Origin: an uncultured bacterium
GTDB taxonomy: Bacteria; Planctomycetota; UBA1135; GCA-002686595
Direction: 5' to 3'
Length of the DNA stretch: 64,000 bases
Assembly (NCBI GenBank): GCA_937896235.1
Contig: CALBMX010000035.1
Span: 62,001-126,000, forward strand
Shown here: positions 42,373-63,402 of the stretch, in pieces
Layout of the letters: each line of letters starts with the position of its first letter
Position numbering within the stretch: position 1 is the stretch's first letter
Translations under genes and position numbers: made by a program
Notes under the pieces: model-generated
What the model was told of the DNA's origin: nothing
The model's input: the letters and a program-made list of their open reading frames with translations, nothing else
The model's database searches: none

Positions 42373-42923
42373 TTGGAGGGCGCGAAATCGCTTGGCTCAT
42401 GCTTCTTTTTTGGAGCGCGATGATCCAAGCGTCGACAGGATTCTTGGCGAGCGGCTTGATGTCGCCTCGTTGGGCACCGGATCTAGGGCTGCTGCTTTTC
42501 CTCGCCGTCGCAGCGCGCCTTGGGCGCAAGGACCTAGCGGCATCCCGTAAGCCGGTCGGTTTCTTGGGGATCCTCTTGGTAAGCGCTGCTTCTCGTCTGG
42601 CATTTTCCGTGCAGGCCGTGGCCCCTGTCCTGACCGGGCTTTTGGCCGTCCTCTTTTGGCAGAACACGCTGCGCAGAGGGTTGGATGTCGAGCGCCCCAT
42701 GATCCGTATTCTTGTTGCGGGTGGCGCGAGTATGCTGTTGCTCTTTTGGTGGCATCTCGTACGAGAGGCAAACCTCATCGGCATCAGCGGAGAGGTGAGC
42801 CCCGTCGTTTGGAGCGATGTCGGTGCGTGGCGCAGTGTGCTCTTGACCTCGGCTTTAGCACCCGCTCTTATGCCCATCTTCCTGCGACTTCCCGGACTGA
42901 GTCCGTTGTGGGGGCGCGAGTGA
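42369..42923 (+). CDS. mreD: MreD-like integral membrane protein
   Basis: 184 residues, about five membrane helices (IAWLMLLFWSAMIQAS; LGLLLFLAVAARLG; GFLGILLVSAASRLAF and others). Sequence identity in MreD is low, so the call rests on size, topology and position. It starts at GTG 42369, overlapping the mreC stop (GTGA), and ends overlapping the PBP2 start. It is part of the elongasome membrane core. Confidence 0.75.
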   Translation: MIGGREIAWLMLLFWSAMIQASTGFLASGLMSPRWAPDLGLLLFLAVAARLGRKDLAASRKPVGFLGILLVSAASRLAFSVQAVAPVLTGLLAVLFWQNTLRRGLDVERPMIRILVAGGASMLLLFWWHLVREANLIGISGEVSPVVWSDVGAWRSVLLTSALAPALMPIFLRLPGLSPLWGRE

Positions 42924-45900: not shown

Positions 45901-46330
45901 CGTCGGGGCACCGGGTGGAGAGAAGCCCTACTTCGGAGATGAGGCTGAGAAATTAAACTTCTCGGAGCAGAATTTTCAGGTGATCCGGGAGGCGATGAGA
46001 GGTGTCGCTAACGATCCCGCAGGAAGTGGAAACCATGCGCTCTCGCGTGGCGACCTGGGATTTGACGTGGCGATGAAAACGGGAAGTGCGGACCTGACGT
46101 CCGGAGATGGAACGGTGCGAAAGCACACATGGGTTATTGGCTGGGCGCCAGCCACGGACCCTAAAGTTATCTTCACGTTTTTCGTGCGCGACACGATGGC
46201 GACCTCGCATAACTCCTCCACGTATCTCGCTCGGCAGTTTCTTGTACGACCTGAATTTCGCAGGTGGTTGTTTGAAGAGGGGGCCGACATCGACCCCAAC
46301 TTTAAACCCGGCCCCCCGCTCGCAGATTGA
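42920..46330 (+). CDS. mrdA: Penicillin-binding protein 2, unusually large
   Basis: 1,136 residues from GTG 42920 (GTGA overlap with mreD), nearly twice the usual 600-650. An N-terminal membrane helix (MLMIALGALALILRQAHV) is followed by the PBP-dimer opening GTIRDAGGRPLVRDREAYHL. The transpeptidase domain lies at the far C-terminus: GSTFKPFA (Ser823, Lys826), SCNVYF (Ser892) and KTGSAD (Lys1053). Roughly residues 110-720 are a mostly helical, Arg/Glu-rich insertion without recognised family. The enzyme cross-links lateral-wall peptidoglycan with RodA, whose gene overlaps by 4 nt. The extra mass is probably periplasmic. Confidence 0.9.
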   Translation: MIGSRRTTAPMLMIALGALALILRQAHVQLDEHEIWSEEAARLERSGELLPYTRGTIRDAGGRPLVRDREAYHLEFSYREFRRSHPLGAVTHAATVVLLEPISLVTALDFAEEWAVAFCEMTPGELYGFRTGQGVRVDLRGLPGCLDRAGALKWIGATSGDEERESMDLSGRAGDLGFYIGRLLQLTKNESKALLRAHENEVMAGRTYLQLVADMRRGDRGRDQSAFIGLGEAEASELAEEQLREELRAFVRHSIADLDTLAARMGIEGARNASEGDTPVVDLVTDLESWRRSIENAAARKLFEEAAGFTPGRIDAETLLSSFELDWIALYMRWDRPRLETWVRRTRSSWLSGWRGSYALPRLLAELRLSEDEEPTVERACNLFSTMWYRESDLSLALDGRPVPLAQRAGLAVFDELRDIFVASVGTAPRPADERLPWTAFVTAPEGEDQVHGRDGFDGERMVEARGAAPLGSQSWLDVEARLTLASREGNPTTRAKRWSHHMDPSRADFRSREILLELAGEVCDAWEGSFQALVRAALLEARQAAMPDQLTKEGALRFNEDSLDRASDRARFILRDYGMRRNALEAPPDQEGEWPAYEVVQLLTRYPDRFPGFGVQDARERIAFVREDEPGLPGVALLGSTVFLDAERAQSQRADVKRLDQLRKKGKRSTEDTVELYELVGRVEPPSEARGISGIEGSFNHFLSGQNGYRERVGLEEAGSEQTSNLRNVIHGKDLGLTLNSELQLAAEMVLEHPEIPVPANAPDKVDAAWLADPEGAIVIMRPNGDLVVAASGPAPWSPRVSLDRPSVERCLTMIDFKPPGSTFKPFAALWALETGKLAATDSFLCEREVPSDGSNKCSYKGVHCHTGYGHGDKGFGTVTPLNMTDALHVSCNVYFAHVGEALSIEDFQGLADTFGFGEPTGISPAGTRGIVEHSFGDLFTRKSLEGGRKFGEKDRMRAANGLSVVQITPVQLARATAGLATGYLPSVRIVDRVGAPGGEKPYFGDEAEKLNFSEQNFQVIREAMRGVANDPAGSGNHALSRGDLGFDVAMKTGSADLTSGDGTVRKHTWVIGWAPATDPKVIFTFFVRDTMATSHNSSTYLARQFLVRPEFRRWLFEEGADIDPNFKPGPPLAD

Positions 46331-47541
46331 AGCGCGGCCACGACTTTGAATACCGCAAACGCGGGGGGAACAGGCGCCGCTCATTTTTGCTGCCCGACCT
46401 GTCGCTCGCGCGATTTGATTGGGTTGTCTTTGCGCTCGGGCTGTTCTTGCTCGGTACTGGCTTGATGTTTGTGCATGCGTGCTTTGAGGCGAACGTGGAG
46501 TACAAGCGCCTCGATTTGACGGTGGGCGACCCTTTCAGTAGCCACTTAAAGATCGTGATGATCAGCACGCCAGTATTTCTGGCTGGCTTGTACATGCGAC
46601 CTGCTTGGTTGAGAGGTCAGTCGTATTTGATCTATGCCGCTGGAATATTCCTACTTGCTCTAGTGCCGCTTGTTGGTATCGAACTCAATAATGCAAAACG
46701 CTGGCTCGACACGCCCTTTGGATTCAACCTCCAACCCTCGGAGCTGATGAAAATCGCGCTTGTCTTGGCGTTGGCCCGCGCGCTCTATCGCAACCGTCTA
46801 CAGACCCTTAGGAGCTGGATCCTCCCCTCGTGTATCGCGCTGTTGCCCATGGGGATGATCATGAAGCAGCCGGATCTTGGGACGTCGCTGACGATCGTTC
46901 CTGTGACCTTGGGGATGTTCTATCTCGCTGGGGCGCGGATGAGAGTCATCATGGGGCTTTGCTTGCTCGTCGCAGGGCTCGGGTTTGTTTCGTGGCAAGC
47001 GGGACTTGTGAAGGACTATCAACTGCGCCGCATCGATACGTGGTCGCGCGCGTTTGATCCCGATGTCTTGATCTCCGAGCGCAACGCAGCCGGGTTCCAC
47101 ACTTATCAAGCACGAGTCACCATCGGCAACGGCGGTATGGATGGGAGCGGGATCGGCAAAGGGGTCGCGAATCGGGCTGGGCACTTGCCAGCGAAGGAGT
47201 CCGATTCGATCTGGTCGGTGGTCGCAGAAGAGCTTGGGTTAGTTAACTCCTCGGCAGTTCTGATCGCCTACGCGCTGTTTGCCATGCTGCTCTTGCGAGG
47301 CGCCGGGGAGCTGCGCGACCGCTACAGTCGATTGGTCGTCGGTGGCGTCGGTTTGTATTTCGGCGCGCACTTCTTCATTCACATCGGGGTGAATACCGGA
47401 CTCTTGCCGATGACTGGATTAACCTTGCCCTTGTTCTCCACCGGCGGCTCTTCGATGATCGCTAGTTTTGGAGCGTTGGGAGTTGCTCTCGGCTTGTCGG
47501 CGCGACGGGTCGCCGCCCTTGATGCCGACGCCTTTCGGTAG
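46327..47541 (+). CDS. rodA: Peptidoglycan glycosyltransferase RodA (SEDS family)
   Basis: 404 residues with about ten helices. SEDS motifs are ELNNAKRWLDTPFGFNLQPSE, the next helix KIALVLALARALYR, MKQPDLGTSLTIVPV, GIGKGVANRAGHLPAKESDS (catalytic loop region; SDSIWSVVAEELG) and the C-terminal NTGLLPMTGLTLPLFSTGGS. It starts at TTG 46327, overlapping the PBP2 stop (TTGA). RodA polymerises lipid II with PBP2. The cytoplasmic N-terminus is longer than usual and rich in Arg. Confidence 0.95.
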   Translation: MKRGHDFEYRKRGGNRRRSFLLPDLSLARFDWVVFALGLFLLGTGLMFVHACFEANVEYKRLDLTVGDPFSSHLKIVMISTPVFLAGLYMRPAWLRGQSYLIYAAGIFLLALVPLVGIELNNAKRWLDTPFGFNLQPSELMKIALVLALARALYRNRLQTLRSWILPSCIALLPMGMIMKQPDLGTSLTIVPVTLGMFYLAGARMRVIMGLCLLVAGLGFVSWQAGLVKDYQLRRIDTWSRAFDPDVLISERNAAGFHTYQARVTIGNGGMDGSGIGKGVANRAGHLPAKESDSIWSVVAEELGLVNSSAVLIAYALFAMLLLRGAGELRDRYSRLVVGGVGLYFGAHFFIHIGVNTGLLPMTGLTLPLFSTGGSSMIASFGALGVALGLSARRVAALDADAFR

Positions 47542-49168: not shown

Positions 49169-51532
49169 ATGAGCACGAAGCCTCACTCTCGACACTTTCG
49201 CGTCCTCTCCCTTTTGACCGCTTGTGTTTTCGCAGCGCCAGCCTTTGGGCAGGTCGCATCCCTCCCATTCGAAGATGGCTTTGAATCTGGCTCGCTCGCA
49301 CCCTATTGGTCGGTCAACATCCCCCAGGGTTTGGGATACGCCAGCGTTTCAAGTGCGGATGGGCCCGCTACCGGGAATTTTCACTTGGTGATGGCTGCCT
49401 CTACCGACTTTGTGGAGAGCACAGCCGAGGCCATCCTCGCTCTTGACCTAGAGGGTCAATCGGACATTATTCTTGAGTTCTCTCAACGCGAATATGGGGA
49501 TGAGTCCGACATCGAAGACGGTGTGTTTATCAGCGATGATGGTGTCAAGTGGTTCAAGGCGGTTGACCTAGGAGCTTCCAGCACAAGCGTATATAAGGAA
49601 TGGAGCCTCAGTCTTGACGATCAAGTTGCTGTGGCCGGGATGACTTTTACGAACCCTTTCTACATCAAGTTTAGCTGGAATGACGACTACAACATTCCAA
49701 CCGATGGTTTTGGGTTCGACGACATACGCCTCCGTAGCGTGAACTACAAGACCCTGCAATCGATCCCCGGTAAGACCGTCAATGGCGAATTTGGTCGCAG
49801 TATGGCACCAGTCGGCGATTTTGACGGAGACGGCTTCCCTGACTTTGCGGTCGGTTATCCAGGTTGGAACGCAAATAAAGGGCGTGTCGAAATCTGTTCG
49901 GGGCTAGATGCATCGATCTTGGCGGTTGCTACCTCCGGGTCCCTTGGCGCGCGATTTGGGGAAACGATGGCCAACATCGGGGACCTAGATGGCGATGGGA
50001 AGGACGAGCTCCTCATCGGGGCCCCTTTTGCCGGCACTTTGGCCGCCGAGGGCGGGGCGGCGTTTGTCTACTCCTACGCCACGGGCTTATTCCTTCACAC
50101 GATCAACGGTACGGAAGTCGGCGGCCACCTTGGGGCCAGCGTCTCTGGAGTCTCCGATCTTAACGGAGACCTCGTGCCGGACTTTCTTGTTGGAGAGCCC
50201 TTCGCGGACAACGGAGCTTCGGTGAACGTTGGCCGTGCACTCGCCTATTCGGGCCAATCAGGAGGTGTCCTGTTCAGCCGATTCGGGGTCCAGGCTAATG
50301 AAAACTTCGGAAGCTCGGTTGCCGGAACTCCAGACGTAAATGGGGATTTGATTCCGGACGTCATCGTGGGTGCCCCCGGACGCAGCTTGATCATTTTCCT
50401 GAATGATCACGTTGGAAGTGCAGATGTGCTCTCGGGCGTAAGCGGTTCCATTATCCGAACGTTCTCGGGAGACACAGCGAACGGCAAATTCGGCGCATCC
50501 GTTTTGGGCATCGCCGACGCAAACGGTGACGGACTTGGTGACGTGGCGATCGGTGCGCCTGATGCGGGCACAGGCGCCGGAATGGTGCGCATCTTCTCCC
50601 CGGATAAGTTTCAAGTTATCGATACGCTTCTAGACTCGGCCGTCAGCGGGCATTTCGGCTTCGTGCTAAATCACGTAGGTGATGTGACTGGGGACGGGCT
50701 TGAGAACTTCGCAGTCGGATCAAACTCAAGTGGCATTGGCTCAGCTACAGTTTATCGCGCTTCGGATTTGGTGAAAATCTACCGATTCGACTCACTCTTG
50801 GCTGGCACTGGATTTGGGCAGACGGTCGCTGGCGCAGGGGATATCAATAACGACGGAGTGGGTGACGTCATGATCGGAGCCCCGACCGAAGTCGTCACCG
50901 GGAAGACCAATGCCGGCTTCGTTCGCATCGTTACGACAGCCAATGCTCCCGTATTTGAGCTCGTCGACGGAGTCCATAGTACGCTCAGCGGAGACTTGGT
51001 CATCAGAGGGCAGAGCCTATTGGCTAACTTGGTTGTCGAGATTGACGGTTTGGTTTACCCCTCCGTTTATGTGTCGCCTGTCGAGGCGCGTGTTTCCGTC
51101 GGGCCCGCACTAAAAGGCGGTTACTCGGACATCAAGATTTCAACAGACCTGGGAGAGGACTCGGAAGTGGGGGGCGTACCGCGTTTTCCCGCTCTAAAGA
51201 GTGATGCCTGGCTTTCGATTGGGGGGCAGCTCAATGTCACCCTCAACAATGGTGATATCGGAAGTTTTATCCTTGCGACCTCGAATCAGATCTTCGCGGC
51301 CCCCGCGGACTTCTCGAACTTTGGTTGGTACTACGGCTTGGAGCTTGCGGGCGTCTGGATGGTCGGCGCAGGTGGCTTTGGCCCGGGCGACTTCGAGCGG
51401 AACTTCTCCTTTTCGGGACCGACGACCTCGGGCCTTATCGGGACCGACTTTTATCTGCAGGCTTGGACGGCTCAAAACAGCCTTGGGCTGGTCGGGTTCT
51501 CGAATACGACCAAGTTCACGATCGTGCCGTAG
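49169..51532 (+). CDS. Secreted FG-GAP (integrin-alpha-like) beta-propeller protein
   Basis: 787 residues. A signal peptide (VLSLLTACVFAAPAFG) is followed by a MAM/jelly-roll-like domain of about 160 residues (PFEDGFESGSLAPYW at its start, GFGFDDIRLRS at its end). Seven FG-GAP repeats then form a propeller (residues about 195-585), with calcium loops such as DFDGDGFPD, DLDGDGKDE, DANGDGLGD and DINNDGVGD. The C-terminal 200 residues are an IPT/beta-sandwich-like region with no sorting signal that I recognise. It is a surface or secreted adhesin-type protein, common in large-genome aquatic bacteria. Confidence 0.85.
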   Translation: MSTKPHSRHFRVLSLLTACVFAAPAFGQVASLPFEDGFESGSLAPYWSVNIPQGLGYASVSSADGPATGNFHLVMAASTDFVESTAEAILALDLEGQSDIILEFSQREYGDESDIEDGVFISDDGVKWFKAVDLGASSTSVYKEWSLSLDDQVAVAGMTFTNPFYIKFSWNDDYNIPTDGFGFDDIRLRSVNYKTLQSIPGKTVNGEFGRSMAPVGDFDGDGFPDFAVGYPGWNANKGRVEICSGLDASILAVATSGSLGARFGETMANIGDLDGDGKDELLIGAPFAGTLAAEGGAAFVYSYATGLFLHTINGTEVGGHLGASVSGVSDLNGDLVPDFLVGEPFADNGASVNVGRALAYSGQSGGVLFSRFGVQANENFGSSVAGTPDVNGDLIPDVIVGAPGRSLIIFLNDHVGSADVLSGVSGSIIRTFSGDTANGKFGASVLGIADANGDGLGDVAIGAPDAGTGAGMVRIFSPDKFQVIDTLLDSAVSGHFGFVLNHVGDVTGDGLENFAVGSNSSGIGSATVYRASDLVKIYRFDSLLAGTGFGQTVAGAGDINNDGVGDVMIGAPTEVVTGKTNAGFVRIVTTANAPVFELVDGVHSTLSGDLVIRGQSLLANLVVEIDGLVYPSVYVSPVEARVSVGPALKGGYSDIKISTDLGEDSEVGGVPRFPALKSDAWLSIGGQLNVTLNNGDIGSFILATSNQIFAAPADFSNFGWYYGLELAGVWMVGAGGFGPGDFERNFSFSGPTTSGLIGTDFYLQAWTAQNSLGLVGFSNTTKFTIVP

Positions 51533-51846: not shown

Positions 51847-51875
51847 TTGCTCGGATCGCTCGGGCAGCATATACT
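51847..51875 (+). promoter_or_regulatory. Candidate promoter of the microcompartment operon
   Basis: TTGCTC (51847-51852), a 17-bp spacer, then TATACT (51870-51875). The -10 element is good and the -35 is weak, which would suit an activated promoter. Transcription would start about 50 nt before the first BMC-H gene. Confidence 0.45.
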
Positions 51876-51932
51876 GCTCGCCCCTAACCCTTCCTCCCCT
51901 CACGGAACCTCCTTGCAGAGGTGATTAGTAAC

Positions 51933-52223
51933 GTGCAACACAAAGCTCTTGGAATGATCGAGACCAAAGGTCTCATCGGTTCGATCGAAGCCGCAGACGC
52001 CATGGTCAAAGCGGCAAAGGTCGTGCTTTTCGGTAAAGAGAAGGCCACTGCTGGCCTTGTCACCATGTACATCTGCGGTGAAGTTGGTGCCGTCAAGGCA
52101 GCCACCGACGCTGGCGCTGCAGCAGCTCGCCGCGTTGGAGAGTTGGTCTCCGTGCACGTGATCCCGCGCCCCCATGCGCAGGTTCTCAGCATCCTCCCGG
52201 ACATGACTCCGGCTAAGTCTTAA
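51933..52223 (+). CDS. BMC-H hexameric shell protein (1)
   Basis: 96 residues from GTG 51933, preceded by GAGGTG at ribosome-site distance; the GTG at 51921 is less well placed. It is a single Pfam00936 BMC domain beginning [20 protein letters not shown] and continuing through [20 protein letters not shown] to VHVIPRP. The pore loop is KEKATAGLV. Hexamers tile the facets of the polyhedral shell, and the pore admits small substrates. First gene of the operon, with a paralogue at 54265-54552 that differs in the pore loop and tail. Confidence 0.96.
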
Positions 52224-52354
52224 ACACTCTCCCTTGATCTTGGCCCGCCGGAATCTCCACGGGGGCCCAGTCTAGTGAGCTGCGCTTTTTACTATTGGAT
52301 TCCGAGCGCCACCGGCCCGAACTCCATGGGACTGCGCCTCACCCTTCAAGAGCT

Positions 52355-54211
52355 ATGAAAGGACTCGATCCTGATCTCCGCGCCCTGCAGGAGATGCGTG
52401 ACGCTGTCAACGCATCGAAGCTGGCCTGTAAATCCCTTGCTACCTGGACTCAGGAGCAAGTCGATGCGCTCTGTCGTGAGATTGTCAAGGCTGCCTCGGC
52501 CGCTGCGCACGATCTTGCGCGTATCGCCGTTGAAGAGACGGGGATCGGGCGTGTGCATTACAAGGTCCTTAAGAACATCTTCGCATCTGAGGGCATTTGG
52601 GAGTCAATCAAGGACGAGAAGACGGTCGGGATTCTTGGCACGAACGAGCAAACCGGCGTGACTGAGATCGGCACCGCGTCGGGTGTAATCGCCTGCATCG
52701 TTCCCACAACGAATCCGACGTCGACGACCATTGGGAAAGCCTTGATAGCGATCAAGGGCCGCAACGCTGCGGTGATCAGTCCACACCCGCGGGCCAAGCG
52801 CTGCATCGTTGAGACGGTCGAGGTCTTACGTCGAGCAATCGAGCGAGCCGGCGGGCCCGCGGATTTGGTAACGGTGCTCGCGAATCCGACGATCGAATCC
52901 ACCGGCGCTTTGATGCGGCACAAAAACGTCGCGATGATCCTCGCGACGGGTGGCTCCGGACTTGTGCATGCGGCCTACAGCTCAGGGAAGCCCGCGTACG
53001 GCGTTGGTCCCGGGAACGTGCCGGTTTATATCGACCGATCGGCCAACATCTCCGAAGCGGCAAAGTGGATCGTCGCTAGTCAGAGCTTTGACAACGCAAC
53101 TCTATGCTGCTCGGAGCAGGCCATCGTTGTCGATGCCCCTGTGCGCGAGAAACTGCTCGCCGAGCTGGTGAAGCGTGGCGCGCATCACGCGAACGATGCC
53201 GAGCGCAAACTGCTTGAGAATTACTGCAACAGGAACGGCGCTCAGAACCCCGACGTTGTCGGATTGGATCCTTGGCGCATTGCCGAGGCTTCAGGTTTTC
53301 ACGTTTCGCGTTCAACCACGATTCTGTTGGCCGATCAAGATGGCGTGGGGGCTTGCTCGCCCCTCTCGATTGAAATCCTGTGCCCGCTGCTCTCTGTTCA
53401 CACGGTGGACGGATGGAAAGAGGGGTGTGAGGTCTCCATGAAGATCTTGCACAATCACGGGCTGGGACATACCTGTGGTGTGTGGTCGGGGGATCGCGAG
53501 GTGATTGAGGCGTGGGCCCTGCAAAAGCCGGCCAGCCGCATCATCGTGAACGGCCCGACGAGCCAGGGTTCGGTTGGGTACAGCACGGGCTTGACTCCCT
53601 CCATGAGCTTGGGCTGCGGTCCTCTCGCGGGCAACATCACATCGGACAACATCACCGCTCGACACTTACTCAGCGTAAAGCGCCTTGCGCCCCCGACTCG
53701 CGATTGGGCGGATCGCTATGCGAAGGATATGGCACGCGCCGCCTCGCTTACCGGCGACTCCGCTCCGCGCGGCTCAGGGCTCCCCGGCGACCCCGCACTC
53801 GGCTCCGACATGGGCGGGCGCCGTGATCAGGTTTCTGCCCAGGCGTCCAACTGGAGTGGAAACGCATCGCGTGCAAGTAACCCAAATCCAGCACCTGCGG
53901 CACCCGTTGTGCATGGCACACCTGCGACTCCTAGACGCGCGCCCGTCTTTGCCGGGGGCTTAGCGGGCAGCTCGCCGCGCCCCAGCACGCAGCCGCATTT
54001 TGTCGCCCCAGCGCCCGCGCATTCAGCGAAGACGCAAACGCCAAGGTCCGGTGACCTAACAGCACCTCGTTCCGCGGGGCGACAGGTTGGCGAGGCGCTA
54101 AGCGCAAACGAAATCGCAAAGATTATGGCCACAGCGGGAGCCGGCTGCCCCATGGGGCCATGTGGCGGTTGCCCGCACTCTGACATCTCAACGGGAGCCT
54201 GCACCGCGTAG
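52355..54211 (+). CDS. Acylating (CoA-dependent) aldehyde dehydrogenase with encapsulation-type tail
   Basis: 618 residues from ATG 52355. The catalytic core (about residues 1-455) is of the PduP/EutE/AdhE-N type, converting an aldehyde plus CoA and NAD+ to acyl-CoA. It shows IVPTTNPTSTTIGKALIAIK, ILATGGSGLVHAAYSSGKPA and the catalytic Cys251 in SFDNATLCCSEQAIVV. A linker of about 110 residues rich in Pro, Ala and Ser follows. A short amphipathic helix comes next (GEALSANEIAKIMATAG, about residues 579-595), like encapsulation peptides. The end has four cysteines: C598, C603, C606 and C616 (CPMGPCGGCPHS...GACTA). It lies between the two BMC-H genes, so it is the core lumen enzyme. The tail cysteines are unusual. 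Confidence 0.93.
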   Translation: MKGLDPDLRALQEMRDAVNASKLACKSLATWTQEQVDALCREIVKAASAAAHDLARIAVEETGIGRVHYKVLKNIFASEGIWESIKDEKTVGILGTNEQTGVTEIGTASGVIACIVPTTNPTSTTIGKALIAIKGRNAAVISPHPRAKRCIVETVEVLRRAIERAGGPADLVTVLANPTIESTGALMRHKNVAMILATGGSGLVHAAYSSGKPAYGVGPGNVPVYIDRSANISEAAKWIVASQSFDNATLCCSEQAIVVDAPVREKLLAELVKRGAHHANDAERKLLENYCNRNGAQNPDVVGLDPWRIAEASGFHVSRSTTILLADQDGVGACSPLSIEILCPLLSVHTVDGWKEGCEVSMKILHNHGLGHTCGVWSGDREVIEAWALQKPASRIIVNGPTSQGSVGYSTGLTPSMSLGCGPLAGNITSDNITARHLLSVKRLAPPTRDWADRYAKDMARAASLTGDSAPRGSGLPGDPALGSDMGGRRDQVSAQASNWSGNASRASNPNPAPAAPVVHGTPATPRRAPVFAGGLAGSSPRPSTQPHFVAPAPAHSAKTQTPRSGDLTAPRSAGRQVGEALSANEIAKIMATAGAGCPMGPCGGCPHSDISTGACTA

Positions 54212-54264
54212 GTTTTCGTCTCGGAATTACACTCAACAACTCACTTTAGAAAGGACTGAATACT

Positions 54265-54552
54265 ATGGATAGCCTTATCGCATTAGGTCTCATTGAGACC
54301 AAAGGAATGGTTGGCGCCATCGAAGCTGCTGACGCCATGTGCAAAGCGGCCAAGGTCACCTTGCTCGGCAAGGAGACTTCGGGTGGCGGCCTCGTCACCG
54401 TGATGGTCCGCGGCGAAGTTGGCGCGGTCAAAGCGGCAACGGACGCTGGTGCAGCAGCCGCCCGCCGTGTCGGCGAGCTCGTCTCAATCCACGTGATCCC
54501 GCGCCCCGCAGAGGATCTCGAGCGCTTCTTGCCGCCGATCCCCGAGCAGTAA
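54265..54552 (+). CDS. BMC-H hexameric shell protein (2)
   Basis: 95 residues with a clear ribosome site (AAAGGACTG, 54250-54258). Canonical BMC domain: [20 protein letters not shown], then [20 protein letters not shown] and HVIPRP. Roughly 70% identical to the first BMC-H. The pore loop is KETSGGGLV, glycine/serine-rich compared with KEKATAGLV in paralogue 1, so the two probably give facets with different permeability. Confidence 0.96.
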
Positions 54553-54582
54553 ATCACTGCAGAGTCCCCTTGGGACTCCGCT

Positions 54583-55242
54583 ATGAAAAAGTCCCCTGTT
54601 CAACTGCGCGGCTTGGTCATTATTGATCAGATGCAGCCGCAATTCGCAGCGACAATCGCCGCGAATTCCGATGGCTACTTCCCGATTCCTGGGGAGACCG
54701 CCTGTTGGGTAGAGGTCTGTCCAGGAATCGCTGTGAACCGCCTGCTCGATGCCGCCCTAAAGGGCTGTGACGTGAAGCCGGGTGCGATGATTCTCGAGCG
54801 CTCTTACGGTACCTTGGAGGTTCACGGACCGGATCAGGGCCAAGTGCGCGAGGCCGGGGAGTATGTACTGAAGGCGGCAGGTCAAACAAGGGACGATGGT
54901 CTCTCTCCAGCCGTGCTCTCTTCTGAGGTTGTGAATCAGATCGATCCCCATCATGCGATGATGATCAACAAGTCGAGAAGTGGCATGTTGGTACTGGGTG
55001 GTGACACTCTGTACACGCTTGAAGTCAATCCGGCGATTTGGGTTCTACTTGCAGCGAATGAAGCGGAGAAGGCTGCGCCGATACGCATCGTGAGCCTAGA
55101 GAATAATGGCGCTGTCGGGCGCATGCAGCTCGCGGGTTCTGATGCCGCGATTGAAGAGGCCGTGCGCGCAGTACAACGCGCTTTGGAAGGTGCCCCTGGG
55201 CGCAGCAATCCCGCTGGAGAAGGAGGCGGAGCATGTTTCTAG
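54583..55242 (+). CDS. BMC-T shell protein built of two circularly permuted BMC domains
   Basis: 219 residues. Two BMC-like halves are recognisable in the permuted order seen in EutS/EutL/CsoS1D-type proteins. The first is about residues 30-105 (ETACWVEVCPGIAVNRLLDA, then GTLEVHGPDQGQVREAGEYV). The second is about 133-205 (LYTLEVNPAIWVLLAANEAE, then GRMQLAGSDAAIEEAVRAV). Such proteins form trimers, in some families with gated large pores. It is less conserved than the other shell genes. It ends in a Gly-rich tail (AGEGGGACF) that overlaps the next gene by 10 nt. Confidence 0.8.
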   Translation: MKKSPVQLRGLVIIDQMQPQFAATIAANSDGYFPIPGETACWVEVCPGIAVNRLLDAALKGCDVKPGAMILERSYGTLEVHGPDQGQVREAGEYVLKAAGQTRDDGLSPAVLSSEVVNQIDPHHAMMINKSRSGMLVLGGDTLYTLEVNPAIWVLLAANEAEKAAPIRIVSLENNGAVGRMQLAGSDAAIEEAVRAVQRALEGAPGRSNPAGEGGGACF

Positions 55243-55562
55243 GTAAGGTAATAGGCGAGATTTGGGCGACCCAAAAGGTAAAGGATCTCGAGGGCAAGCG
55301 CCTGCTGGTCATCGAAGCGCTCGATGATCGGCGCGATCCTTCTGCACCGAAAATCACGCCCGTGATAGCTGCAGACCCGATTGGTGCCGGAGTCGGCGAG
55401 CGAGTGATTGTCGCCTTTGGGAAAGCGGCGAGGGTCGCCCTCGGTGGAGATGGTGACTACGCCTACGAGGCCGCGGTTGTTGGCATTGTCGACGACGCAA
55501 ATATTCCAGATGCGCCGGCCTCCTGGGGCTTCGGCGATAGCGACAGTCAAGGAGGCGCCTGA
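55233..55562 (+). CDS. BMC-P (EutN/CcmL-type) vertex protein (1)
   Basis: 109 residues, with a strong ribosome site (GGAGG) inside the preceding gene. The OB-like pentamer fold is recognised by MFLGKVIGEIWATQKVKDL, LLVIEALD, ADPIGAGVGERVIVAFGKAA and the C-terminal AAVVGIVDDANI. Pentamers cap the twelve vertices of the shell. The C-terminal tail (ASWGFGDSDSQGGA) is longer than in CcmL. Confidence 0.95.
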   Translation: MFLGKVIGEIWATQKVKDLEGKRLLVIEALDDRRDPSAPKITPVIAADPIGAGVGERVIVAFGKAARVALGGDGDYAYEAAVVGIVDDANIPDAPASWGFGDSDSQGGA

Positions 55563-55885
55563 TGCTTCTCGGAACAGTAGTCGGACAGGTTTGGTCCACA
55601 CAAAAGGATGCAACCCTTGTCGGCATTCGCATGCTAATCGTGCAGCCCTTTGTTAACAGCGAAAACGGCGAGCAAAAAAGCGCAGAGACCCTAGTGGTAG
55701 CCGACCCGATAGGCGCAGGCATCGGAGAGCGCGTAATCGTAGTCTTTGGCCGCGCTGCGCGCCATGTCATCGGGCAGGGTCACGACATCGCGATTCAAAC
55801 AGCCATTGCGGCAATCGTGGATGGGATGGAATTCGAGGGCGGCCGCAGTTTTGGGCCGAGCGCGGACACAGATCCCTCTCACTAA
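55562..55885 (+). CDS. BMC-P (EutN/CcmL-type) vertex protein (2)
   Basis: 107 residues; ATG 55562 overlaps the stop of the first BMC-P gene (TGATG). It has the same signature: MLLGTVVGQVWSTQKDATL, LIVQPFV, ADPIGAGIGERVIVVFGRAA and AIAAIVDGME. It is clearly a diverged paralogue rather than a recent copy, so vertices may be of two kinds. Confidence 0.95.
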   Translation: MLLGTVVGQVWSTQKDATLVGIRMLIVQPFVNSENGEQKSAETLVVADPIGAGIGERVIVVFGRAARHVIGQGHDIAIQTAIAAIVDGMEFEGGRSFGPSADTDPSH

Positions 55886-55921
55886 CAACACCGATCCGGG
55901 AAGACCCCGGGGAATTAACTC

Positions 55922-56518
55922 ATGACACGCAACGACTACAATCCCGCCCTTCGCGACGACGTGAACCTAGGCCCGTGCATTGGCCTACTTGAATTCGCAA
56001 CGATCCCCCGTGGGATCGAAGCTGCCAACGCCATACTCTGGGAAGCTAATGTTGAGCTGATCTTTTCAGCTCCTGTTCAGCCCGGTAAGTATGTGCTGCT
56101 CTTCACGGGCAGTATCGATGATGTCAAGACGGCCATGCGCTGCGGTGAGGAGCTCGGAGGTCACGATGTCATTGACCGCTTGTTCATTCCTCAAATCCAC
56201 GAACAGGTGGAAGTGGCGCTCCGCCGAACCGACGGTTATATCGACGGTAAATTGGATGCCGTGGGAATCGTTGAAACAACCACCGTTGCCTCGGCGATCC
56301 TTTCCGCTGACCTCGCCCTGAAAAAAGCGAATGTCGACCTCTTTGATCTGCGTATCGCCAACGGCTTGGGTGGTAAGAGCTACCTCTGCTTGACGGGCGA
56401 AATCTCAGATGTTCGCTCAAGTGTCACCGAAGCTGCGCGCTCGGCTAAAGAGGCCGGACGCCTGTCGCGCGAGGTCGTGATTGCGAACCCACACCCAGAG
56501 CTCTCGCGTTACCTGTAG
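55922..56518 (+). CDS. BMC-T shell protein with two canonical BMC domains
   Basis: 198 residues. The first BMC domain is at about 17-100 (IGLLEFATIPRGIEAANAIL; KYVLLFTGSIDDVKTAM). The second is at about 112-190 (DAVGIVETTTVASAILSADL; SYLCLTGEISDVRSSV). Domain order is normal, as in PduT-type trimers, but neither pore loop (SAPVQPGKY, GLGGKSY) contains the Cys that binds iron-sulfur in PduT. It is last of the shell genes, 36 bp after BMC-P 2. Confidence 0.92.
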   Translation: MTRNDYNPALRDDVNLGPCIGLLEFATIPRGIEAANAILWEANVELIFSAPVQPGKYVLLFTGSIDDVKTAMRCGEELGGHDVIDRLFIPQIHEQVEVALRRTDGYIDGKLDAVGIVETTTVASAILSADLALKKANVDLFDLRIANGLGGKSYLCLTGEISDVRSSVTEAARSAKEAGRLSREVVIANPHPELSRYL

Positions 56519-56547
56519 GTCCCTCCTACTCCTAAGAAGCTTTCCCG

Positions 56548-56874
56548 TTGCCCTCCCCTAACCTCATTATCGAGTCCGACATGCGCGCGCTTGCGCGTGG
56601 GACTCGCCTTGTAATTGAAAAGGGCACGATCGTCACACCGGCAGCCTTGGACTGTGCCTACGAGCGCGGGATCACTCTCGATCGTCGCGCGGGTTCAGGT
56701 CAAAGTGGCTTGGCGGGCACGTCGAAATCGAAAGACTGCCTGTGGCACAAAATGCTGGGTGAACCCGGCAAATATCTCGTCGAAGTTAAGAATGGCGAGG
56801 CCGTTATCTGGCTCCTTGGAGACAGCGGACCTGTGGCCTATGGCCGCGATAGATTGGAGAACCACAACTCATGA
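56548..56874 (+). CDS. Small BMC-associated protein with EutQ/EutT-N-like module
   Basis: 108 residues from TTG 56548, which is needed to include the whole module; ATG 56581 is the alternative. Residues about 5-44 (LIIESDMRALARGTRLVIEK, then GTIVTPAALDCAYERGITL) match in pattern the N-terminus of the next protein and, from memory, the N-terminal regions of EutQ and EutT. The C-terminal half (KDCLWHKMLGEPGKYLVEVK, then GEAVIWLLGD) looks like a small beta domain of unknown family. Its stop overlaps the next ATG (ATGA). Probably a scaffold or targeting protein of the compartment. Confidence 0.65.
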   Translation: MPSPNLIIESDMRALARGTRLVIEKGTIVTPAALDCAYERGITLDRRAGSGQSGLAGTSKSKDCLWHKMLGEPGKYLVEVKNGEAVIWLLGDSGPVAYGRDRLENHNS

Positions 56875-57392
56875 CACGCCGTTTCCTTACCGCTGAAGAC
56901 GTCCGCCGCCTAATCCAGGGCGGCGGTGGCGGCGAACTTGTTGTCGACGCTGAAACCGTCGTAACTCCCCAAGCACTCGAAGTAGCCAATGCGGCTGGAG
57001 TTAAGATCAACTCTGGCGCCGGTGGAGCGTGGCAAGTGCCGCAGCCAGATCGCGGCCCGGATGCTGCAAGGGCAATGAAGACTTTGAGCCGCTTGCCCGA
57101 ACCGGAAGCCGGCGCGGGCGACGGGACGGGGGTGATCCTCACCGTAATCGGTAAAAACCGACTGGGTGTGCTCGCCGAAATCACGGCCTTCCTCGCTAAG
57201 TCTGGATGTAATATCCACAAGGTGTCTCAAGAGATCGTCGAGGGTTATTTTCACTTGATCCTGACCGTCGAACTTGATGGCACAACATCTTTCGAATCAC
57301 TGAAGTCCGGCATAGAGTGCCTTGGCGGAGAGGACGACTTTGTCGCTCGCGTCATGCACGAGCGCGTCTTCCGCTTCATGCACCGCGTCTAA
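56871..57392 (+). CDS. ACT-domain protein with EutQ/EutT-N-like module
   Basis: 173 residues. Residues 4-45 (RFLTAEDVRRLIQGGGGGEL, then VVTPQALEVANAAGVKI) repeat the module of the upstream protein. After a linker, residues about 85-170 form an ACT domain (VILTVIGKNRLGVLAEITAF, then GCNIHKVSQEIVEGYFHLIL), the type found in free-standing UPF0237/GcvR-like regulators. UPF0237 ACT proteins are commonly encoded just before UPF0210/DUF711, exactly as here. ACT domains usually bind small ligands such as amino acids. The module fusion suggests the ACT protein has been recruited to the microcompartment. Confidence 0.82.
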   Translation: MTRRFLTAEDVRRLIQGGGGGELVVDAETVVTPQALEVANAAGVKINSGAGGAWQVPQPDRGPDAARAMKTLSRLPEPEAGAGDGTGVILTVIGKNRLGVLAEITAFLAKSGCNIHKVSQEIVEGYFHLILTVELDGTTSFESLKSGIECLGGEDDFVARVMHERVFRFMHRV

Positions 57393-57405
57393 CGAGGACA
57401 ACTCC

Positions 57406-58773
57406 GTGGCACCCTATACCGATCGCGAAATTCTCGAGCTCGTCCGCATGGTCGACCTCGAGACACTTGACGTCCGCACTACAACCCTCGGCATCAATCT
57501 ACTGGATTGCGCCGACCCTGATCTCGAAAGCACGTGTGAGAAGATCTACGCTAAGGTTGTTCACCACGCCTCCAAGCTGATCGAAACCGCAAACTCTGTT
57601 GCAGCGGATTACGGCGTTCCCATTGTGAACAAGCGGATTGCCGTTACGCCGATCTCTCTGGTCGCGGCGGCCTGTGGCGCAGACAACCTTGTTCCGATTG
57701 CACGTGCGATGGACGCAGCCGCGAAGGAAGTTGGCGTTGACTTTATCGCCGGCTTCACAGCGTATGTGCACAAGGGATTCACTCGCGCTGACGAGGCACT
57801 TTTCAACTCGATTCCCGAGGCCCTTGATGTAACCGACCACGTCTGTTCATCGGTGTCCCTCGCGAGCACTAAGGCAGGCATCAACATGGATGCCACGCGC
57901 CGCTTCGCGCAGATCGTTTTAGAGACGGCGCATCGCACCGCTGACCGCGGCGGGCTGGGCGCGTGTAAGTTGGTTTGCTTTTCGAATGTGGTTGAGGACA
58001 ACCCATTTGTCGCCGGAGCCCACATGGGAATCGGCGAGGCGGAGACCGTACTCTCCGTCGGTGTCAGTGGGCCGGGCGTTGTACGGGCTGCATTGGCACG
58101 CCTTTCACCTGACGACGACTTGACTGCGGTTGCCGAGACGATCAAGCGGACATCCTTCAAGATCACTCGTATTGGCGAGCTGATCGGGCGGGAAACTGCG
58201 AGACGTCTAAACACCATCTTCGGGATCGTTGACGTCTCTCTGGCTCCAACACCTGCACCCGGCGACTCGGTGGCTGATATCCTCGAGTTGATCGGAGTCG
58301 ACGTGACAGGGGCGCCCGGGACAACTGCCGCCCTCGCCCTACTTACGGATGCGGTGAAGAAGGGTGGCCTGATGGCTTCGTCAAGCGTTGGCGGACTCTC
58401 TGGCGCCTTTATCCCGGTCTCTGAAGACCAAGGGATGATTGAGGCTGTGCGCAAGGGCGCCTTGTCTCTTGCGAAGCTTGAGGCGATGACCACTGTTTGT
58501 TCGGTGGGCTTGGACATGGTGGCCGTGCCGGGGGACATTCCTGAGGACATCTTGATGGGGATTATCGCGGACGAAATGGCGGTTGGCATGGTGAATAGCA
58601 AGACCACCGCATGCCGTATCATTCCAGTTCCAGGGCTAGGTCCTGGGGACACAGTGGAGTGGGGTGGCCTACTGGGGACGGGGATTGTGCAGGACCCGGG
58701 TAGGTTCGGGTGTGCAAACCTTCTTCGCCGTGGGGGAAGGATACCGGCACCGATGCAGGGTTTTCGGAACTAG
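57406..58773 (+). CDS. UPF0210/DUF711 family protein, candidate compartment enzyme
   Basis: 455 residues from GTG 57406 with GAGGA at good distance; the frame from 57322 overlaps the ACT gene and is rejected. Full-length match to the family pattern: VRTTTLGINLLDCADPDLES, VPIVNKRIAVTPISLVAAA, FIAGFTAYVHKGFTRAD, VCSSVSLASTKAGINMDA, VVEDNPFVAGAHMGIGEAE, SGPGVVRAAL, SLAPTPAPGDSVADILE, GGLSGAFIPVSEDQGMIEA, ICS-like TVCSVGLDMVAVPGD, and the terminal RRGGRIPAPMQGFRN. Function is unknown; the solved pneumococcal member (SP0239) was, as I recall, grouped with the PFL-like glycyl-radical fold. No glycyl-radical 'RVxGY' site is visible. It is the last gene of the BMC operon and the best candidate for its signature chemistry. 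Confidence 0.92.
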   Translation: MAPYTDREILELVRMVDLETLDVRTTTLGINLLDCADPDLESTCEKIYAKVVHHASKLIETANSVAADYGVPIVNKRIAVTPISLVAAACGADNLVPIARAMDAAAKEVGVDFIAGFTAYVHKGFTRADEALFNSIPEALDVTDHVCSSVSLASTKAGINMDATRRFAQIVLETAHRTADRGGLGACKLVCFSNVVEDNPFVAGAHMGIGEAETVLSVGVSGPGVVRAALARLSPDDDLTAVAETIKRTSFKITRIGELIGRETARRLNTIFGIVDVSLAPTPAPGDSVADILELIGVDVTGAPGTTAALALLTDAVKKGGLMASSSVGGLSGAFIPVSEDQGMIEAVRKGALSLAKLEAMTTVCSVGLDMVAVPGDIPEDILMGIIADEMAVGMVNSKTTACRIIPVPGLGPGDTVEWGGLLGTGIVQDPGRFGCANLLRRGGRIPAPMQGFRN

Positions 58774-58855: not shown

Positions 58856-60130
58856 GTGCGAGTCGACGGTATGGGTATTCCACCGGGTTCTGGTGCCCAC
58901 AAGGCTCCTGGACACCCCCCCCTCCACCCCTTCATTCTGACCTTGTTCCACTCGTTCACCTTCGAGCCAAGCCCCGAATTGCCCCTAGGCGAGTCCCGCC
59001 TAGCGCAAGGCGCGGGACGCAGGGTACTCATCGTTGATGACGAGCCCGGATTGGCGGAGATGGTCTGCAGAGGGCTAGCTGGCAGCTTCGAGGCAGAAGC
59101 GGCTAGCTGTGCTGAAGAGGCGCTGGGCCTCTTGGCCAGCGGGAAAACCTACTCGGTAGTCCTCTCGGACCAAGAAATGCCAGGCATGACCGGCACCGAG
59201 CTCCTAAGGGAGATTCAACGGGAGCATCCGGAGACTGTCCGCATGCTCTTTTCTGGCTATGGTGATGTGGACACAGCGATTCGTGGGCTGCATGAGGGAG
59301 CAATCTTCCGTTTCCTTATGAAGCCCAGCTCACTTGCCGAGACTAGAGCCGCGATCGAAGCTGGCGTCCTTCGTCATCGGCGCAAAGTGACGTTTCGCAT
59401 CAAGCGCGAGCGTGCTCAGTTTGCAATGGAGGCGGCCGAGGGGTTCACTGCGCTACTAGAGGAGCGGCTGGATCAGGCGCAATACGCGACCGTATTTGCA
59501 CTTGCAAGATTGGCCGAAGAGCGCGATGACTGCACGGGTAAACACCTCGAGCGCGTAAGCATGTTCTGCCGTGAACTTTCGATCGGGCTTGCAGATACGG
59601 GCCACTTTCAAGATGAGATTACCTCGCGATTCGTTCGCGATATTGAGCGCTCCGCACCGCTGCACGATATTGGCAAGGTCGGGATTCCCGATTCGATTCT
59701 GCTCAAGCCTGGCAAGTTGACAGAGGAGGAGTGGGCCATCATGCGAACGCACCCCCAAATTGGTGCGGAAACGATTGCAGCGATCATGCGAACGGATCCG
59801 ACCGCTAGCTTCTTACGTATGGGGTACGACGTCGCCTTATGCCATCACGAGATGTGGGACGGCTCTGGTTATGGGCAGGGACTCGTGGGCGAGGAAATTC
59901 CGCTTTCAGCACGCATCTTAAAAGTGGCCGATTGCTACGACGCCCTAACGACTTGGCGTCCCTACAAGAAACGATGGACGCACGAAGATGCCATCGCCCA
60001 TGTAGTCAAGTTCGGCGGCTCAGAGTTTGATCCGATCGTAGCCGCGACACTGCGCCGGATGGGCGACCGGTTGAATTGTTTGCGACTCTCCCTATCAGAC
60101 GACATCCACATAAATCTCAAAACTGTCTAG
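58856..60130 (+). CDS. Response regulator with HD-GYP phosphodiesterase domain
   Basis: 424 residues if the GTG at 58856 is used; the first 50 residues lack homology and the real start may be further in. The receiver domain starts at RVLIVDDEPGLAEMV with the Asp in VVLSDQEMPGMTG and the Lys in RFLMKPSSLAE. The output domain is HD-GYP: HDIGKVGIPDSILLKPG and HHEMWDGSGYGQGL, followed by KVADCYDALTTWRPYKK. The expected activity is cyclic-di-GMP hydrolysis. It is on the same strand as the BMC operon, 83 bp downstream, with no evident terminator between. Whether it regulates the BMC genes is unknown. Confidence 0.85.
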   Translation: MRVDGMGIPPGSGAHKAPGHPPLHPFILTLFHSFTFEPSPELPLGESRLAQGAGRRVLIVDDEPGLAEMVCRGLAGSFEAEAASCAEEALGLLASGKTYSVVLSDQEMPGMTGTELLREIQREHPETVRMLFSGYGDVDTAIRGLHEGAIFRFLMKPSSLAETRAAIEAGVLRHRRKVTFRIKRERAQFAMEAAEGFTALLEERLDQAQYATVFALARLAEERDDCTGKHLERVSMFCRELSIGLADTGHFQDEITSRFVRDIERSAPLHDIGKVGIPDSILLKPGKLTEEEWAIMRTHPQIGAETIAAIMRTDPTASFLRMGYDVALCHHEMWDGSGYGQGLVGEEIPLSARILKVADCYDALTTWRPYKKRWTHEDAIAHVVKFGGSEFDPIVAATLRRMGDRLNCLRLSLSDDIHINLKTV

Positions 60131-61398: not shown

Positions 61399-63402
61399 CT
61401 AAGGCAAATGTTCCCCGACCGAGGCTTCCCAGTTGGGGTGTTTGCGAACGGCGGAGAGCCATGGATCACGTAGCAATCTTGCCGCGGAAGGTCTTCCATA
61501 CGACGCGCTCACCCGATCGCGTTGGCCGAACTCGCCCTCGATGCTCCACTCCGTATCCCACTCTGAGGCCGCACCAAAGCGCTGTACATAGGCACCGAGT
61601 GTTTGAAGCGCGCCATCCAGATCCCCAGCTCGGGCTTGAGCAACGGCCAGATTGTGGTGGCCGGCGGCCATATCGGGATAGTCACGGGTGACCTTCTTGA
61701 GAGCTTCCAGTGCGCTCGCTAGCCCGTCCTGGTCCCCTTGTATTAGGTAGGATAAACCCAAATCCGCGTTGAGAACGGCGACATGCTGAACGATTCCATC
61801 AAACGATTCTGGCGGCACGGCATCCCCTTCTAGGGCCAAGTCCGAGAGTATGTTGAGAGTTAAGCGGCCCCAACTTCGGTCGCCGTGATGTAGTTTTTGT
61901 AGCTGCTGTTTCGCCAGGCTCGCGTTGCCGGCACGGAGCTCATACATCGCCGAAGTGAGGATCAATTCGGCCCGTTCTGGATACTTCTCTAGGCCTTCCG
62001 AGAGGGCGCTTACTAGATCCATTTCCTTGGCTCTGTCCACGGGCTTATGCGGGTCCTGGAATTTAGACAGAAGCTCGAGTACCTCGAGCTCGTAGGGAAG
62101 GTCGGCTTGTTTGATTTGGGCAGCACGAATGAGTTCGGCGATCTCCCGGCCTAGACTTCCTCCCTTTATGAAGTTCGCCACCGATTCAAAATCTTCCGGA
62201 TGGTAGGAGTACTCGCTCAGCCACTCGCCGACTTGGCTTCGAACATGGGCTGTTTTTCCGGCATCGCCTAGAGCGTCATGATCTCTAGCTGAAAGAGAGG
62301 CCCAACTCTCAGATGCAGCTAGGTAATCTCCCCTGTCCAGTTGGGACTCCATTTGAGCTAAATCGAACTCGCGGCGATTGGGGTTGTTGCTGCTCTCCAT
62401 CTCGGAGGTGCTGCTAGGGGGGGGGCTTGTTTGGGGAAGTGCCGAGCTCGCTAACGTCGAGCTCCCCATTGGCGCTTTGGGAATAGGCTCGGTGGGGAGG
62501 TACAACAAGGTGATCACTAAGGCGGTAAGTCCAAGCCCTACCCATCCCATAAGTGCCCGGGATACCTCCCGCTTTTCAATCGGAGGTGTTGGTGCAGCTC
62601 CTGCTACTACCAAGAGCTCATCCAATGCCAGCCCCAAATAGTAAGCACTCCGAAAACGTTTTCCAGGCTCGCGAGCTAGCCCCTTTTCTAAGAGATCTAC
62701 AAGGTCAGGCCAGTCGCTGCCGACTTGGCTAAGGACTTCATCATCCCCGAGTGCTGAACCGGTAACCAAGGCGGAGAGCGAAGCGCAAAGGCCGTAGACA
62801 TCTGCTCGGCGATCGATGTCATCGGCTACTCCTTGGGATTGCTCGGGGGCAGAAAAGCCCATTGTGCCCAGAGCGCGCGAGAGGAGCTCTGAATTGCTCC
62901 CTGGGGGTGAACGCAGCGAGCTGAAGTCCGTCAGTTTAGGCGTCTCGCCACTAAACATGATGTTGCAAGGTCGAACGTCCAAATGAAGGATGTCGTGTCT
63001 ATTCGCCACTGATACGGCGTCGCATACCTCGCGGATAATCCGGACAGCACGCCTTGGTTCCACGGGCCCCCGCAGGTAGAGGTCTGCTGCGGAACCGTCC
63101 TCTAGCAACTCCATAGCTGTGTAGAGTCCAGGAGCACTCTTGCCGTCGGGGTGTGGGGTGAATCCACCAGAAAATACGCGCGCGATCCCTATGTGATCCA
63201 AAGATGCGATCTGTTGCAAGCTGGATTCAAAAGCCACCTTGAGTTCTTCGCTAAACGACTCGCACCGCTCGAATCGGACAGCGACCAAAGCACCACTTTG
63301 AGTATCTGTCCCTCTCCAAACAGTGCTGGTTGCACCTCTGCCAATGACGTCATGCAACAAGTATGGCCCAATCTGGGGAGGGCTATTTTGTCCTAGATTC
63401 AC
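61399..63402 (-). CDS. Membrane-anchored Ser/Thr protein kinase-like protein (likely degenerate) with TPR-like domain
   Basis: 667 residues. The N-terminal kinase fold (about 10-265) has a glycine loop IGRGATSTVW, but the beta-3 lysine is Arg43 (LVAVRFE). The catalytic loop reads HLDVRPCNIMF (Asp142 and Asn147 kept, HRD Arg and DLKP Lys changed), and DFG is DFS (Asp159). Some metal-binding residues remain, so weak activity is possible. A membrane helix (GWVGLGLTALVITLLYL, about 285-305) separates a C-terminal TPR-like region (AAGHHNLAVAQARAGDLDGA). It is convergent with the NadR-like gene. It probably senses or scaffolds rather than phosphorylates efficiently. Confidence 0.82.
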   Translation of the reverse strand: MNLGQNSPPQIGPYLLHDVIGRGATSTVWRGTDTQSGALVAVRFERCESFSEELKVAFESSLQQIASLDHIGIARVFSGGFTPHPDGKSAPGLYTAMELLEDGSAADLYLRGPVEPRRAVRIIREVCDAVSVANRHDILHLDVRPCNIMFSGETPKLTDFSSLRSPPGSNSELLSRALGTMGFSAPEQSQGVADDIDRRADVYGLCASLSALVTGSALGDDEVLSQVGSDWPDLVDLLEKGLAREPGKRFRSAYYLGLALDELLVVAGAAPTPPIEKREVSRALMGWVGLGLTALVITLLYLPTEPIPKAPMGSSTLASSALPQTSPPPSSTSEMESSNNPNRREFDLAQMESQLDRGDYLAASESWASLSARDHDALGDAGKTAHVRSQVGEWLSEYSYHPEDFESVANFIKGGSLGREIAELIRAAQIKQADLPYELEVLELLSKFQDPHKPVDRAKEMDLVSALSEGLEKYPERAELILTSAMYELRAGNASLAKQQLQKLHHGDRSWGRLTLNILSDLALEGDAVPPESFDGIVQHVAVLNADLGLSYLIQGDQDGLASALEALKKVTRDYPDMAAGHHNLAVAQARAGDLDGALQTLGAYVQRFGAASEWDTEWSIEGEFGQRDRVSASYGRPSAARLLRDPWLSAVRKHPNWEASVGEHLP

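Follow-up and report, generated by a model that had tools for sequence, protein, structure and literature searches.

The closest described counterparts of the bacterial microcompartment (BMC) analyzed here are the FRAG and HO (Haliangium ochraceum) types of the 2021 BMC catalogue (Sutter et al., PMC8217296) and the sugar phosphate utilisation (SPU) BMC. As described in the catalogue sections used here, FRAG and HO have shell genes at several genomic places, a BMC-P triplet, a CcmP-like BMC-Tdp, and a main locus with an aldehyde dehydrogenase (ALDH) and no further enzyme; for HO type I, the text mentions an aldolase adjoining satellite BMC-P genes, with two BMC-P genes given and the aldolase class unnamed (PMC8217296). 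SPU BMCs, in the portion of their description used, combine DeoC (pfam01791) and RpiB (pfam02502) with an ALDH making acyl-CoA. All of these components have likenesses in the genome studied here, in which an operon ending with a gene for a DUF711 (UPF0210) protein lies in the window G000:C35:62001-126000, that is, the whole stretch of 64,000 nucleotides analyzed. Genome G000 has a size of 4.26 Mb in 134 contigs. Genomes, loci, and families are referred to by G, L, and f numbers; the family of the window is f1, with 61 genomes.

On sequence grounds, we consider it likely that a Planctomycetota family has a fragmented aldolase metabolosome of HO/FRAG/SPU-like character, that this operon is its main operon, and that DUF711 is an accessory cargo, docked through a fusion of a EutQ-like (EQ) domain with an ACT domain, and not the signature enzyme.

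Main operon and satellite enzymes

The operon consists of ten genes, all on the plus strand (51921-58773), in the order BMC-H, ALDH, BMC-H, permuted BMC-T, BMC-P, BMC-P, canonical BMC-T, a 108-aa protein, the ACT protein, and DUF711. Six shell genes, an ALDH, and three genes ending in DUF711 on one strand had been described in the initial annotation, and this was confirmed by Pfam and NCBIfam profiles. The gene order recurs in the families f1, f44, and f24 and partly in f28, so the arrangement is more than chance. The same annotation had reported no signature enzyme. For the operon this holds, as none of the usual ones was found there by profile annotation, and tblastn with the genome's own class II aldolase, DeoC, and RpiB gave no match anywhere in the window or in any of the 43 loci surrounding DUF711 or BMC genes. 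For the genome it does not hold: a class II aldolase, DeoC, and an EQ-containing RpiB are all encoded outside the window, and DUF711 is thus not the only enzyme candidate besides the ALDH.

The class II aldolase gene (158 bits), at approximately C35:11920-12663, is about 100 kb away from the operon and adjoins three tandem BMC-P genes (C35:12726-13608). Five BMC-P genes per genome were found in all 13 family genomes scanned, two in the operon and three in tandem elsewhere, the third gene of the triplet in G398 being a cut fragment at a contig end. The triplet was also found in G109 and G435 of the same order. By tblastn, a class II aldolase gene adjoins the triplet in 8/8 loci (the own genome, six further ones of the family, and G109), and PF00596 was found in all five tested.

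The second satellite was found through the EQ domain. Search of the 61 family genomes with this domain revealed a third EQ protein, adjoining a DeoC-family gene. A PF01791 match was obtained in 53 family genomes, and in 40 of them an EQ open reading frame (ORF) is no more than 2.5 kb away from a PF01791 gene. In the own genome (G000:C94), rpiB is followed directly by deoC. This RpiB (160.7 bits, cut-off 135) consists of a helix, the EQ domain, and the isomerase, in this order, and this DeoC (TIGR00126, 284 bits, cut-off 117) has an N-terminal helix extension. Another PF01791 match is located on C69.

RpiB was found in 44 of the 61 family genomes and a DeoC match in 31 of 42 chosen genomes. The long form of DeoC (246-307 bits) is present in 12 of 18 sister-side genomes without DUF711, as well as in G023, G018, G118, G044, and G065. 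DeoC lacks the extension in f24 (3 genomes); among the f44 genomes, two have a short different extension, one has only a remote paralog, and three have no match. Ordinary short DeoC was found in the controls G198, G185, and G142. Within the family, only short DeoC was found in G329, G427, G391, G393, and G414, only remote paralogs in G396 and G408, and no DeoC in G355 and G406. The class II aldolase satellite is present in G355 and G396, both without RpiB and without the extended DeoC. No PduL (PF06130) was found in any of the 61 family genomes.

A further satellite was observed in four family genomes (L133, L134, L135, and L137), where a BMC-T gene adjoins a conserved gene of about 440 aa. 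By model matches, the two L133 genes are PduT-like and RnfC/PduS-like and might form a route for electrons across the shell.

The ALDH of the operon fits TIGR02518 best (515 bits), and the TIGR02518/AdhE models score above the EutE-type PRK15398 (257 bits); identity to EutE of E. coli K-12 is 32%. An encapsulation-like helix and a Cys-rich tail were recognized by eye at the end of all 21 ALDH sequences from DUF711 genomes (19 from the family, L102, and L104). The two family genomes with the compartment and without DUF711 (G155 and G259) retain the tail but not the helix. By pattern, which missed one sequence, the helix was found in 20/20 versus 0/2 DUF711-less sequences. The Cys-rich tail, C-x4-C-x2-C-x9-C (54140-54211), is conserved in the family; the f44 ALDHs do not have it, and Cys-rich stretches occur in the f44 homologs of the 108-aa protein.

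Because a class II aldolase with a BMC-P triplet and RpiB with DeoC are encoded elsewhere in the genome, the compartment is best described as fragmented and aldolase-based. The operon would provide the shell, the ALDH, and the docking proteins, and the two other genomic places would provide the aldolases and RpiB. Judging from the functions of their families, DeoC would split deoxyribose 5-phosphate, and the class II aldolase a ketose phosphate, each into a triose phosphate plus a short aldehyde; inside the shell, the ALDH would then convert this aldehyde to acyl-CoA. The proposal of the initial annotation that DUF711 supplies the aldehyde is not supported, aldolases being encoded elsewhere in the genome, and DUF711 as the sole signature enzyme was rejected once the RpiB/DeoC and aldolase satellites were found.

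Assigned by gene content and not by the catalogue HMMs, the compartment is called HO/FRAG/SPU-like here without being placed in a single subtype, also because the enzymes of the SPU main locus are not in the operon. Unlike in FRAG and HO, the main operon includes EQ-ACT and DUF711. Neither 'DUF' nor 'PF05167' appears in the main text of the catalogue (PMC8217296). Unlike in SPU, DeoC and RpiB are encoded at a satellite and not at the BMC locus, they are missing in some members, there is no PduL, and the ALDH scores higher with TIGR02518/AdhE than with the EutE-type model. The absence of PduL also separates the compartment from the PVM type, since no PVM-type locus with PduL was found. As in the MIC class (ALDH, incomplete core; PMC4207490, in the part used), an ALDH is present and a complete core is absent from the main locus. 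The compartment had been annotated as an unrecognised type. In substance this was not upheld, the signature enzymes being encoded elsewhere, although EQ-ACT and DUF711 in the main operon do set it apart from FRAG and HO. Overall, the initial interpretation is partly supported. More generally, the lack of a signature enzyme in a BMC locus may mean no more than that the system is fragmented.

The putative docking domain and DUF711

EutQ of the ethanolamine compartment has been described as a shell-cargo adaptor; in the Salmonella protein, H1/H2 bind the shell and H3/H4 bind the cargo (PMC12487888). In the part of that study used here, shell binding is shown for EutQ only. The N-terminal ~50 residues of EutQ are homologous to the EQ domain. 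In EutQ this region precedes a cupin, whereas here the EQ domain is joined to ACT, RpiB, or a short C-terminal part; this ~45-residue domain is common to the 108-aa protein, the ACT protein, and RpiB. Three EQ profiles matched residues 2-51 of K-12 EutQ with 19.9-27.1 bits (8.0-12.0 for the best among 4,200 shuffles) and residues 4-47 of K-12 EutT with 9.4-18.9 bits. Among NCBIfam models, the N-terminus of the ACT protein is near EutQ (E 0.004); TIGR02536 also matches the domain. Of 30 ACT-protein relatives, 20 matched the PduM C-terminus, 10 EutQ, and 24 the GcvR model (E up to 0.1 in each case). The docking domain thus appears to be common to EutQ, EutT, and the C-terminus of PduM. A 2025 paper, in the portion used, describes PduM as having no known sequence homology outside Pdu compartments (PMC12108088). 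Weak EQ matches were also seen in ORFs of ~900-1200 aa (E 0.015-0.05).

With a profile built from 108-aa proteins alone, the EQ domain was found in 57 of 66 ACT ORFs, corresponding to 35 distinct ones after removal of duplicate loci. The nine ACT ORFs without EQ are seven stand-alone ACT proteins (0/7 with this profile) and one gene, present twice, that is cut at a contig end. No ACT match was found at the other stand-alone DUF711 loci at the threshold used. A scan of genome contigs with the ACT protein as query yielded three loci. The AlphaFold model of EQ-ACT (pLDDT 71) shows a helix (8-17), a strand (22-25), a helix (33-41), and a strand (45-48), followed by an ACT-like pattern.

The EQ-ACT fusion was seen only in genomes carrying this compartment, and this predicted docking domain on the ACT partner of DUF711 is the new element of the system. 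By the same similarity, the ACT partner is recognisably adapted to the compartment, and the 108-aa protein is recognisable as a compartment protein through its EutQ-like N-terminal domain. Because its ACT partner carries a domain homologous to the shell-binding part of EutQ, DUF711 is probably a shell-docked accessory cargo; we infer that the ACT adaptor would pin it to the inner face of the shell through the EQ domain. This would put the uncharacterised and widespread DUF711/ACT pair in the context of a compartment, at a location that can be tested. One small docking domain would then be common to EutQ, RpiB, and the ACT adaptor, possibly also to PduM and EutT, and could be used to trace hidden cargo genes at a distance from any BMC operon, as here it led to the RpiB/DeoC satellite.

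The DUF711 protein is homologous to SP0239 of Streptococcus pneumoniae (PDB 2HA9) over nearly the full length (E 1.5e-153). DUF711 has been placed with glycyl-radical enzymes and ribonucleotide reductase in a superfamily of ten-stranded barrels that includes pyruvate formate-lyase, and the portion of the paper used reports that a radical glycine was not found in SP0239 (PMC4390871). Three divergent stand-alone sequences were set aside from an alignment of 58 rows; the remaining 55 core sequences share 72 invariant positions (where filled). DUF711 is probably an active enzyme, since the conserved residues of its family are retained. The only invariant cysteine is C364, numbered from the alanine after the start. 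It may be the counterpart of the finger-loop cysteine of pyruvate formate-lyase and ribonucleotide reductase. A universal catalytic role of C364 is disfavoured, because this position is occupied by glycine in the three divergent rows. The AlphaFold model of DUF711, based on a four-row alignment, had a pLDDT of 43 and was not used. No paper linking DUF711 with microcompartments was found in a literature search.

A bolder extension, which we regard as doubtful, is that DUF711, as an orphan branch of the barrel superfamily, is a catalytically active cargo held at the inner shell by an ACT adaptor with a borrowed EutQ module, that it offers a second substrate route into the ALDH where DeoC/RpiB are absent, and that the module (in EutQ, EutT, PduM, RpiB, ACT, and the 108-aa protein) is a general mobile tag for building microcompartments.

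Distribution of DUF711 and alternative explanations

In the phylum sample of 392 genomes, DUF711 was found in 56 genomes (54 over the cut-off) and BMC genes in 127. Of the 54 genomes over the cut-off, 45 also have BMC genes (Fisher p 8.5e-17, uncorrected for relatedness). Within the family, DUF711 was found in 57 and BMC in 59 of the 61 genomes, which bears out the co-conservation with shell genes in relatives; these 57 include one genome with only a sub-cut-off fragment and one with a partial copy at contig ends. Loci were read for the 19 family genomes of the phylum sample that have DUF711: in 17 of them DUF711 closes the operon, and in the other two, G268 and G240, it is located on another contig. 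Beyond the family, the operon ends with DUF711 in f44 (6 genomes), f24 (2), and f28 (1). In G018, G118, G044, and G065, DUF711 comes after BMC-T and EQ-ACT at a site separate from the remaining shell genes.

In the DUF711 tree, most of the operon-linked sequences form a cluster that also takes in some satellite and stand-alone copies. Two copies were observed in G023, one in the BMC locus and one elsewhere (L088 and L089), and these are sisters in the tree. A split form was observed in f43, f55, and f23 (L016, L148, L098, and L099), with BMC-T, EQ-ACT, and DUF711 together and the remaining shell genes plus the ALDH on a different contig.

Against co-conservation, of 20 further BMC loci picked from DUF711-less genomes (two of them PVM-like controls), 16 have shell genes and a related ALDH (640 bits or more) with no DUF711, and DUF711 was not found anywhere in the family genomes G155 and G259, which have the shell and ALDH. 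DUF711 was thus lost once while the shell persisted. Because the DUF711-less sister loci fall between DUF711-bearing lineages in the ALDH tree, the ACT-DUF711 pair was gained or lost several times. The ALDHs of the PduL-bearing loci L123 and L124, which we take to be PVM loci, are separated in this tree by a very long branch. In G387, a single-contig genome without BMC, neither DUF711 nor RpiB was found, and the only aldolase there is a remote one.

Several findings weigh against an aldolase metabolosome with docked DUF711. The satellites are unlinked to the operon, so that their membership rests on co-distribution, the common EQ domain, and terminal extensions. The neighbourhood of the triplet was read in the eight loci only, and the best NCBIfam model for the class II aldolase is far under its cut-off. 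The EutT and PduM matches of the EQ domain are each weak alone. RpiB and a DeoC match occur in G430, a 64% complete genome showing neither BMC nor DUF711, and G240 retains EQ-ACT with the shell while its DUF711 is on a different contig. G155 and G259 are sisters in the ALDH tree, so the co-loss of the ALDH helix is a single event, and both retain RpiB and DeoC. Finally, the long DeoC is missing in 12 of 29 scored DUF711-bearing rows.

DUF711 and EQ-ACT are kept in these 12 rows (including G355, G391, G329, and the families f44 and f24), and together with the placement of DUF711 in the barrel superfamily (PMC4390871, in the part used) this could suggest that DUF711 serves as another, alternative signature enzyme, its barrel making an aldehyde for the ALDH where DeoC/RpiB are absent. 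We judge this unlikely: an aldehyde source remains even in G355 and G396, given their class II aldolase satellite; nine genomes among the 54 with above-cut-off DUF711 lack BMC; and no significant complementarity was seen between DUF711 and long DeoC (Fisher p 0.22; median p 1 for independent pairs), so that mutual exclusion of the two was rejected.

ACT domains are usually ligand-binding regulators. The pair could be a sensing or regulatory one that modulates the compartment (for example, its gating or the ALDH activity) on an amino acid without making a product, an explanation with equally little probability in our view. It would agree with the GcvR matches of the ACT proteins and with the dispensability of the pair in G155 and G259, but the 72 invariant positions of DUF711 look more enzyme-like, although this is no more than suggestive.

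Very improbable is a regeneration of CoA by DUF711 in place of the missing PduL. The lack of PduL in the family and the presence of pyruvate formate-lyase in the superfamily (PMC4390871, same part) would fit, but no swap is seen, as the 16 sister-type DUF711-less genomes are not among the 59 of 392 genomes with a PF06130 match, while G018 and G192 have the compartment, DUF711, and a PF06130 match; without anti-correlation, the replacement of PduL was rejected. Least credible of all is DUF711 as a mere operon passenger unrelated to the compartment, as its loss from G155 and G259 with persisting shell and ALDH might suggest, given the compartment-type domain fused to its ACT partner only in genomes with this compartment and the linkage of DUF711 to the compartment across families.

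Operon features and neighbouring genes

The features of the operon are collected in Table 1. By comparison with relatives, the most likely starts are GTG at 57406 for DUF711 and ATG at 52355 for the ALDH (relatives L102 and L104). Promoter and terminator scans gave signals no better than shuffles. GC-rich loci were annotated by profile searches, as the longest-ORF annotation is misleading there.

Table 1. Genes of the BMC operon, with positions in the window and supporting profile matches
Feature	Position	Strand	Evidence
BMC-H shell protein 1	51921..52223	+	PF00936 89 bits
Acylating aldehyde dehydrogenase (ALDH; EutE/AdhE-N type), Ala/Pro linker, encapsulation-peptide-like helix, and Cys-rich C-terminal tail	52355..54211	+	TIGR02518 515 bits (cut-off 620)
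BMC-H shell protein 2	54265..54552	+	PF00936 99.5 bits
Permuted tandem BMC-T (CcmP-like, BMC-Tdp)	54583..55242	+	Pfam BMC 32.7 bits; NF053796 CcmP 224 bits, under curated cut-off 340
BMC-P vertex protein 1	55233..55562	+	PF03319 82 bits
BMC-P vertex protein 2	55562..55885	+	PF03319 82 bits
Canonical BMC-T (PduT-like)	55922..56518	+	PF00936 124.7 bits, two stretches; TIGR02526 PduT 119 bits, cut-off 250
108-aa protein, predicted N-terminal EutQ-like (EQ) docking domain	56548..56874	+	EQ profile; no Pfam match
EQ-ACT adaptor (predicted): EutQ-like N domain (residues ~4-49), linker, ACT domain (~88-173)	56871..57392	+	ACT 38.7 bits; EQ profile
DUF711 (UPF0210) protein, homolog of SP0239 (PDB 2HA9)	57406..58773	+	PF05167 583 bits; PRK05313 668 bits

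The genes around the operon were assigned by eye. Just upstream, a 787-aa secreted-looking protein with repeated FG-GAP-like segments is encoded (49169-51532). Downstream of DUF711 lie a gene for a response regulator with HD-GYP-like output (58856-60130) and, on the opposite strand, a gene for a serine/threonine-kinase-like protein (61399-63402, minus). Cell-shape genes, penicillin-binding-protein-like (42656-46330) and RodA-like (46327-47541), are located a few kb upstream of the operon, and similar ones lie upstream of some sister BMC loci without DUF711 (L105 and L108). The neighbours of the sister loci, which we take to be mrdA/rodA-, ftsH-, or purH-like, were judged unrelated.

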